Source of the DNA: Sphingomicrobium lutaoense
Lineage (GTDB): Bacteria; Pseudomonadota; Alphaproteobacteria; Sphingomonadales; Sphingomonadaceae
Assembly: GCF_014195685.1 (NCBI RefSeq)
Contig: NZ_JACICF010000001.1
Location: 342,992-406,991 of the forward strand
Direction of reading: 5' to 3'
Length of the DNA stretch: 64,000 nucleotides
Positions within the stretch are counted from its first letter, which is position 1. Each line of letters begins with the position of its first letter. Below the pieces are notes generated by a model. It did not search any database. It was not told the DNA's origin and worked only from the letters and a program-made list of their open reading frames with translations. The position numbers and the translations under genes are program-made. This document shows positions 40,764 to 45,123 of this stretch, piece by piece.

Positions 40764-41021
40764 TCAGCCTTCGATGCTTTCGGCCAGGATCGTGAGACCC
40801 TTGTCGCCCACTTCGGCGAAGCCGCCCGAGACCGCGATGCGTTCGGGTTCGCTGCCGGCGCTCGCATAGATTTCGATGGCACCGTCCTTCAGCGTCGTCA
40901 TGAAGGGCGCATGGCCTTCCATCACGCCGAAATCGCCCTCGACGCCCGGCACCACGACCATATGGGCTTCGTCCGAGCGGACGAGCTTTTCGGGGGTCAC
41001 CAGTTCGAACTGTAGCGCCAT
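40764..41021 (-). CDS. atpC: ATP synthase F1 subunit epsilon (short form)
   Basis: 85 residues, only the N-terminal beta-sandwich ([43 protein letters not shown]). The C-terminal inhibitory helices of E. coli-type epsilon (about 139 residues) are absent. Short epsilons occur in other alphaproteobacteria, where a separate zeta subunit can inhibit the enzyme. The start overlaps the stop of the TRASH-like gene (TAATG). Confidence 0.95.
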
Positions 41022-41209
41022 TATTTCTGTCCCTCGATCGCCGCGTCGAATGCGTTCACGGCTTTCTCAAATTTTTCCCGGCACCCGGGATTGCAGAAGC
41101 CGACGGTCTTTCCCTTGTAGCGGGTCAGGCTGTCGGCCTGGACGGGTCTGCCCGACCATGGGCAGACCCGGTTGAGGCAATCTTCGAGACGAAGATCGCC
41201 GCCAGCCAT
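41021..41209 (-). CDS. TRASH/YHS-like Cys protein embedded in the atp operon
   Basis: 62 residues. Three Cys are arranged C16-X22-C39-X3-C43 ([10 protein letters not shown] ... GFCNPGC), which fits the TRASH metal-binding spacing C-X19-22-C-X3-C; a fourth Cys is at 11. The helix after C43 ([15 protein letters not shown]) resembles YHS proteins. It starts at the base next to the atpD stop and its stop overlaps the atpC ATG, so it must be made with F1 subunits. The function is unknown; metal binding is inferred. Confidence 0.85.
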
Positions 41210-42688
<1,479 letters not shown>

Positions 42689-43567
42689 TTAGAGCGCTTC
42701 GGCGCCCGAAATGATTTCAACGAGTTCGGTGGTGATGGCAGCCTGGCGCTGCCGGTTATATCTGATCGACAATTTGTTGATCATGTCGCCGGCGTTGCGC
42801 GTGGCATTGTCCATCGCGGTCATCTGGCTGCCGTAGAAACCGGCCTGGTTTTCCAGCATGGCGCGGTAGATCTGGATGGCGACATTCTTGGGCAGGAGAT
42901 CCGCGAGGATTTCCTCTTCGCCGGGTTCATATTCGACCGCCGCCGAAGCGCCCTTACCTTCGTCGGCCTCGGCCGGGACGACCGGGATCAGCTGGTCGAC
43001 CTGCGGAACCTGGCTGAGCGTCGACTTGAACTCGGCATAGGCGAGGTGCGCGACGTCGAAACGGCCGCTTTCGAAGCGGTCGATGATATCGTCGGCAATC
43101 GCCTGCGCATCGCTATAGGCGGGGTTCTTGATCGCCGAGGTATCGTGCTGGCCGATGATCTTGCCCGGGAAGAAACGGTTCAGGATCGGGCGCGACTTGC
43201 GGCCGACGACATAGAAATAGACTTCCCTGCCGTCCGCGATCAGTTCTTCCGCCTTGGCGCGTGCGGCCTTGACGATGTTGCCGCTGAACGCCCCCGCGAG
43301 GCCCTTGTCGGCGGTCGCGACGATGATGAGATGCGTCTCGTCCTTGCCGGTGCCGGCGATCAGCTTGGGGCTCTGCGGCCCGACCGTGATCCGGCTGGCA
43401 AGCGAGGACACCACGCTCTGCAGGCGCGTCGCATAGGGACGGCCCGCCTCGGCGCGCTCGGTCGCGCGGCGCAGCTTGGCCGCGGCGACCATCTTCATCG
43501 CCTTGGTGATCTTCTGGGTCGACTTGACCGAGTTGATCCGGAGTTTGAGATCCTTGAGGCTGGCCAT
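42689..43567 (-). CDS. atpG: ATP synthase F1 subunit gamma
   Basis: Central rotor shaft. 292 residues with N-terminal helix SLKDLKLRINSVKSTQKITKAMKMVAAAKLRR (partly conserved in all gammas), the DKGLAGAFSGNI segment and the C-terminal helix NKLSIRYNRQRQAAITTELVEIISGAEAL. It lies 26 bases after atpA. Confidence 0.98.
   Translation of the reverse strand: MASLKDLKLRINSVKSTQKITKAMKMVAAAKLRRATERAEAGRPYATRLQSVVSSLASRITVGPQSPKLIAGTGKDETHLIIVATADKGLAGAFSGNIVKAARAKAEELIADGREVYFYVVGRKSRPILNRFFPGKIIGQHDTSAIKNPAYSDAQAIADDIIDRFESGRFDVAHLAYAEFKSTLSQVPQVDQLIPVVPAEADEGKGASAAVEYEPGEEEILADLLPKNVAIQIYRAMLENQAGFYGSQMTAMDNATRNAGDMINKLSIRYNRQRQAAITTELVEIISGAEAL

Positions 43568-43593: not shown

Positions 43594-45123
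<1,530 letters not shown>

Follow-up and report, generated by a model that had tools for sequence, protein, structure and literature searches.

The junction between atpD and atpC of Sphingomicrobium lutaoense holds a gene for a 62-residue protein that, on profile alignment, we place in the YHS/TRASH superfamily even though it scores below the threshold of the Pfam YHS model. It represents an alphaproteobacterial family that is kept by selection and has no NCBIfam model. Its product is less likely to belong to the ATP synthase than to be a small protein of general thiol or metal chemistry, and the reading that we favour, if guardedly, is that of an autonomous thiol- or metal-binding mini-protein expressed from housekeeping operons.

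Gene and operon layout

In the window (the whole stretch of 64,000 nucleotides that was analysed), the F1 genes lie on the minus strand in the order atpA, atpG, atpD, 62-residue ORF and atpC. The alpha subunit gene atpA (43594..45123, minus) matches Pfam ATP-synt_ab together with ATP-synt_ab_C, the gamma subunit gene atpG (42689..43567, minus) matches PF00231 at 319.1 bits, and the beta subunit gene atpD (41210..42667, minus) matches ATP-synt_ab and has homologues that adjoin the small gene in related loci. The epsilon subunit encoded by atpC (40764..41021, minus) has 85 residues and consists, by Pfam, of the beta-sandwich domain alone, without the C-terminal helical domain. The small gene (41021..41209, minus), an ORF with an ATG start, follows the atpD stop immediately, with a gap of 0, and its TAA (41023..41021) has one base in common with the atpC ATG, giving TAATG. 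A GAGGGA inside it, 8 nt 5' of the atpC ATG, together with the overlap geometry suggests translational coupling of the two genes. Promoter and terminator scans stayed at shuffle level (promoters 1 versus 0.9 in shuffled sequence, terminators 7 versus 5.5).

The 62-residue translation carries the family signature N-x2-C-P-W-S-G-x-P-V ... G-F-C-N-x2-C-R-D-K-F, with its cysteines spaced as C16-X22-C39-X3-C43 and a fourth at C11. The codons of interest, all on the minus strand, are those of N13 (41171..41173), C16 in C-P-W-S-G (41162..41164), C39 (41093..41095) and C43 (41081..41083). An earlier note on this DNA, which left the strand unstated, had described the ORF, its zero upstream gap, the TAATG overlap and the cysteine spacing exactly, and had rightly taken the epsilon subunit to lack its inhibitory helices.

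Selection and residue conservation

A scan of genome_contigs gave 519 matching stretches, and 460 of them code for relatives; the closest 80 of these 460 were kept as named loci and lean towards the atp context. In a sample of 149 genomes of the family, 16 genomes had a match, the source genome included, and in 14 of them it lay between atpD and atpC. Across 16 genomes of the same genus, pN was below pS for the small gene in all 120 pairs, with a median pN/pS of 0.301, nearly that of atpC in the same genomes (0.304). The ORF is thus a real gene under purifying selection comparable to that on atpC. That the ORF is a neutral passenger or mere spacer at a junction that tolerates insertions, an idea that could draw on the 149-residue ORF and the palindromic repeats which this junction takes in sister genomes, is disfavoured by these pN/pS values and, in view of residues that are near-invariant across orders, is very improbable.

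For residue conservation, 250 matching loci were reduced to 171 distinct sequences and 170 were aligned, one with an X being dropped; the alignment takes in two domain-fusion rows (L017 and L018). N13 is Asn in 168 of 170 rows, C16, P17 and G20 are invariant in the 169 ungapped rows, and residue 19 is Ser or Thr in 168 of 169. C39 is kept in 160 of 170 rows and C43 in 158, with His in two; C11 is not conserved (Cys in 111 of 170). Over the 170 rows the net charge of the core averages -1.56 (sd 1.58), that is, slightly acidic.

An origin as a phage or plasmid gene was considered and rejected: 12 stretches of viral_contigs matched the pattern and none was confirmed as a relative. One plasmid record matched, through a glutathione S-transferase (GST) with a related domain, and the best PHROG match of the small protein had an E of 0.02. 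Neither a 15-residue protein string nor GFCNPGCR occurred in the papers searched, and among the matches listed for YHS, ATP synthase and atpD/atpC, none concerned this gene by title or abstract start.

Relationship to the YHS/TRASH superfamily

YHS/TRASH domains are defined by the spacing C-x19-22-C-x3-C, with which C16-x22-C39-x3-C43 agrees. The Pfam YHS model (PF04945) hits the protein at 25.5 bits (E 1.4e-5), below its gathering cut-off of 30.3, and matches 13 of the 14 rows of a family alignment that includes the source protein (E up to 0.01, best 7.8e-6). When the family was compared by hhalign with a template of 23 segments chosen by a YHS-like pattern from other fetched loci, the local run gave a probability of 97.6 and an E of 2.8e-12 (the value for one comparison, not a database search) over 40 gapless columns covering residues 15-54. 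The profile alignment puts C16 on the first Cys of YHS, and in the end-to-end run (probability 97.1) N13 falls on the Asp of the YHS 'DPVC', the proposed fourth ligand position. Profile homology with the ligand positions in register thus speaks for the TRASH/YHS kinship that the earlier note had read from spacing; the sub-threshold Pfam score is what qualifies it. The protein matched no NCBIfam model.

The AF2 model is confident (pLDDT 91.2, pTM 0.74), and its first three Foldseek rows are ribosomal large-subunit particle chains, presumably of L24e type, at a non-significant E of 0.5-0.76. Other weak and non-significant fold matches included a named TRASH domain (2das) and a toluene/o-xylene monooxygenase hydroxylase, and no family stood out confidently in the fold searches with the predicted model, a result that counts against none of them. 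Among solved structures, sequence searches gave one unrelated row (E 0.35) for the protein and no match for the 14-row alignment.

Elsewhere in the source genome, the sole other YHS match is in a 795-residue ORF (L187, G000:C1:1302630-1302761), at 55.2 bits and hence above the Pfam cut-off. Described YHS bearers include Cu-transporting P-type ATPases, toluene hydroxylase and an adenylyl cyclase of Mycobacterium phlei, whose YHS cysteines are C181, C204 and C208 and which is activated by Cu (PMC4626032). A YHS domain selenoprotein appears in selenoprotein surveys (PMC2398784 and PMC13188914); its NCBIfam model matched none of the 14 rows of the family alignment, and these surveys are therefore not used as evidence here.

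Genomic contexts across Alphaproteobacteria

Among the best 80 of the 460 relatives, 42 lie in an atp operon, 21 directly upstream of ffh, six near gshA and 11 elsewhere. Within the atp group, L085 follows atpC and L023 precedes it by ~760 nt, and for L048 and L057 just one of the two neighbours was seen. By record title the atp loci belong to six orders (Sphingomonadales, Parvularculales, Caulobacterales, Maricaulales, Hyphomonadales and Hyphomicrobiales), with one record lacking an order and one further locus, L053, titled Rhodobacteraceae; the latter title may be a misassignment, since its apparent counterpart, G1145, belongs to the Hyphomicrobiales sample. The distance to the atpC start ranges from -20 to 6 nt among the rows listed, except in L053 (57 nt).

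Profile searches of larger samples scored at most 16 first-look candidates per genome, so their counts are lower bounds. At least 37 of 396 Sphingomonadales genomes match at E 0.001, and 31 of the 35 strong matches (≥60 bits, source genome included) are in the atp operon, the other four not. The Hyphomicrobiales sample (the order of G786, with Microvirga) has a match in at least 101 of 397 genomes, and its 66 strong matches (≥56 bits) are distributed over the gshA/rsmE neighbourhood (28), the position before ffh (24), the atp operon (6, spread over five family codes) and other sites (8). An even sample of the class gave at least 26 of 385 genomes with a match; of its 12 strong matches besides the source genome, one lies before ffh and 11 fall outside all three contexts. 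With 60 of 66 strong Hyphomicrobiales matches outside the atp operon, the gene is not tied to the F1 operon everywhere, as a dedicated F1 accessory factor would be. At the same time, an atp slot in six orders and in five family codes of the Hyphomicrobiales sample is more than random placement would suggest.

Neighbours of the relatives were identified as ffh, rpsP, gshA (glutamate-cysteine ligase), an rsmE-like gene and dapF. Five of the 27 listed gshA/rsmE loci lie 38-80 nt after gshA and the others 0.8-2.8 kb from it; five are on the opposite strand, and in one only rsmE was seen. Because rsmE shares this neighbourhood, the glutathione link may be incidental. The ffh, rpsP and rsmE-like neighbours, like the non-significant ribosomal rows in Foldseek, might instead point to a small L24e-like zinc finger that works in translation or secretion and is placed beside ffh-rpsP and rsmE for that reason. 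Such a finger would leave the atpD-atpC site and a GST fusion unexplained, and the slightly acidic average core and the loss of two cysteines in 20 genomes also tell against it, so that we think it improbable.

Epsilon subunit and zeta inhibitor

The epsilon subunit beside the small gene has 127-135 residues in 14 rows, which make up 13 distinct loci when L006 and L042 are counted as one, and 83-90 in the other rows. The source genome carries a zeta-type inhibitor gene outside the atp locus (PF07345, 142.9 bits), and PF07345 was not among the Pfam matches of the 62-residue protein up to E 10. According to PMC9317440, the epsilon subunit of most Alphaproteobacteria is truncated at its C-terminus, and the gene for zeta is found outside atp operons. 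The earlier suggestion that the small protein compensates, as an inhibitor, for a short epsilon subunit was rejected: with long as well as short epsilon partners and a zeta-type gene in the genome, the substitute-inhibitor idea is left without support.

Presence, absence and probable movement of the gene

A search for atpC found it in 55 of 61 same-genus genomes and returned 30 loci. Their atpD-atpC junctions hold the small gene in 16 cases, are closed in nine, contain a palindromic repeat in four and another ORF in one. The closed junctions measure 3-6 nt by extrapolated start, with start codons at most 4 nt from, or overlapping, the atpD stop. In L143, L149, L153 and L156 the place of the gene is taken by ~124-133 nt that include palindromic, GC-rich repeats, and the junction of G316 (L132:1763-2212, minus) contains a different, hydrophobic 149-residue ORF, for which Pfam gave no match at E 1e-5.

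All candidates were then scored in 19 same-genus genomes, namely the 14 without the gene at the junction and five more that were unmatched in the order sample, two of the 19 being less than 80% complete. A single strong copy was found, at another site in G312, whose atpD-atpC junction is closed; all other matches were weak, with E values of 0.002 or higher, and 18 of the 19 genomes are without the gene genome-wide. The F1 ATP synthase of these gene-less relatives does without the small protein. The presence of the gene between atpD and atpC in Sphingomonadales, which the earlier note had proposed to check, was thus borne out for most strong matches of the order sample and not for 14 of the 30 same-genus junctions.

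The atp copies of Aureimonas (L093), Aliihoeflea (L068), L229 and L244 have as nearest relatives the pre-ffh copies of Hyphomicrobiales (82-86% identity), so that, judging from protein similarity, moves of the small gene between operons are likely. L232 is nearest to atp copies of Sphingomonadales, and L217 is equally close to one atp copy and one ffh copy. A tree of 102 proteins over 62 columns (103 were chosen and L024 was dropped for an X) left 48 of 99 inner branches open; on it the atp label needs seven changes, versus a shuffled mean of 34.2, and a single clade for all atp rows was not rejected (p-AU 0.26; 0.183 without L098). Over 73 atp rows, distances within the family correlate with AtpD distances (Mantel r 0.42, 0 of 2000 permutations).

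This correlation, together with the tight spacing to the atpC start and the recurrence of the position in six orders by record title, is what a lineage-specific F1 accessory factor would predict, an assembly, redox-protective or regulatory protein made beside beta and epsilon and acting on them. We regard that reading as unlikely, since 52 of the 66 Hyphomicrobiales-sample genomes carry the gene before ffh or near gshA/rsmE, it is missing from almost half of the same-genus junctions and from nearly all whole genomes checked, and its occurrence is independent of epsilon length in a setting where a zeta-type inhibitor gene is present. From the earlier proposal that co-translation links the protein to the ATP synthase, the coupling geometry stands; a dedicated F1 link does not, given the ffh and gshA contexts and the same-genus absences.

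Loss of the cysteine pair and the question of thiol or metal

In 20 of the 66 genomes of the Hyphomicrobiales sample, the signature continues without C39 and C43 (for example GFADRQARDTF). By family code, 18 of these belong to one family and one each to two others, and 18 of the 20 copies lie near gshA or rsmE. All 20 retain N13, C16, P17, L28, Y31, G33, G37, F38, R44, D45 and F47 and have Thr or Ser at residue 19, with W18 and G20 varying; the 17 distinct cores of the group have pairwise identities down to 0.51. A plasmid search with the Cys-pair-lost variant gave no match. The cysteine conservation among relatives that the earlier note had set out to check therefore holds for C16 and for most rows at C39 and C43, and fails in this group.

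A simple metal role does not readily account for these genomes. As no more than a member of a metal-binding trio, C16 might have been free to drift after C39 and C43 were lost; its persistence, together with the GST fusion and the occurrence near gshA, suggests that it may act as a thiol. The fusion is that of Rhodobacter sp. CZR27 (L018:5278-6153), where a GST-like protein has a related domain, CPYSGKPV...FCNPFCRDK, at its C-terminus. Building on this, we tentatively propose, as a possibility that falls well short of probable, that a metal-finger fold has turned into a thiol-active mini-protein, with N13-x2-C16-P-x-[S/T]19 together with Y31 and R44-D45 as its functional centre; it would take part in glutathione-linked chemistry, and its placement in operons for ATP synthase, SRP or glutathione synthesis would tie its dose to the growth rate.

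A second fusion was seen in G057, where a 1416-residue ORF (L292:2027-6277, minus) has a galactose-oxidase-like early-set domain and, at its end, the small-protein domain twice over, each time with His for C43. In a record titled Candidatus Binatia (a 4.2 Mb chromosome), a copy (L065:4998-5186) lies just before a putative Cu/Zn efflux gene, whose product resembles SO_0444-type Cu/Zn efflux transporters at 69.1 bits, versus a cut-off of 300. The His substitution would suit a metal site, and with the TRASH spacing, the aligned ligand positions and the putative efflux neighbour of L065 it is consistent with a strictly metal-dependent Cu/Zn sensor or chaperone without an F1 link. The 20 genomes in which C39 and C43 are gone from an otherwise retained signature argue against strict metal dependence, none of the three recurrent contexts is a metal-homeostasis operon, and we accordingly give this reading a low probability.

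Proposed role and significance

For the favoured general thiol or metal protein, the existence of the gene, its homology, contexts and selection, its presence or absence within a genus and the survival of C16 without C39 and C43 are observed, whereas we infer the metal or thiol chemistry, the cytosolic place, the translational coupling and the expression logic. On the thiol side this reading draws on the GST fusion and the gshA neighbourhood, on the metal side on the His substitutions in the galactose-oxidase-like fusion and the Cu-activated, YHS-bearing adenylyl cyclase. Weighing against it are the recurrence of the atp slot, the correlation with AtpD distances, the looseness of the gshA link, the 11 strong class-sample matches outside the three contexts and, for a simple metal role, the 20 genomes without C39 and C43. 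The product would be a cytosolic YHS/TRASH mini-protein acting on thiols, on a soft metal (Zn or Cu) or on both via N13, C16, C39 and C43, being neither an F1 subunit nor an F1-specific inhibitor. Its gene may be viewed as a small accessory cassette within housekeeping operons, situated at atpD-atpC in Sphingomonadales and several other orders; most Hyphomicrobiales with the gene carry it directly ahead of ffh or in the vicinity of gshA/rsmE. Since relatives also occur in unrelated housekeeping operons, the protein probably uses the atp operon for expression. In the source genome it would be translated by coupling to atpD and hand translation on to atpC, so that its level would follow that of F1, and hence growth.

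The family occurs in a few essential operons and repeatedly at the atpD-atpC junction, and is present or cleanly absent within one genus. Sister genomes with and without the gene, and homologues with and without the Cys pair, thus constitute natural experiments that can separate metal from thiol function. The case also cautions that operon position alone is no basis for inferring function.

Comparison with known systems

With YHS (PF04945) the family shares a gapless alignment, the placement of C16, C39 and C43 on the three YHS cysteines and an F-C-x3-C core. It differs in having Asn instead of Asp and C-P-W-S-G-x-P-V instead of C-G-M, in standing alone at ~60 residues with a sub-cut-off score, and in including one group without C39 and C43. 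TRASH and ribosomal protein L24e have the C-x22-C-x3-C spacing in common with it, whereas the first ligand position is Asn in the small protein, not Cys, and the structural matches are non-significant. The C-terminal domain of the GST-like protein of Rhodobacter sp. CZR27 bears the same kind of signature (CPYSGKPV...FGFCNPFCRDK) but is fused to GST, with a shorter loop and a different C-terminus. The alphaproteobacterial F1 zeta inhibitor (PF07345) resembles the protein in being small, in coming from the same bacterial class and in having the inhibitor role that the earlier note had proposed for the protein; it is a different family, encoded elsewhere in the source genome.
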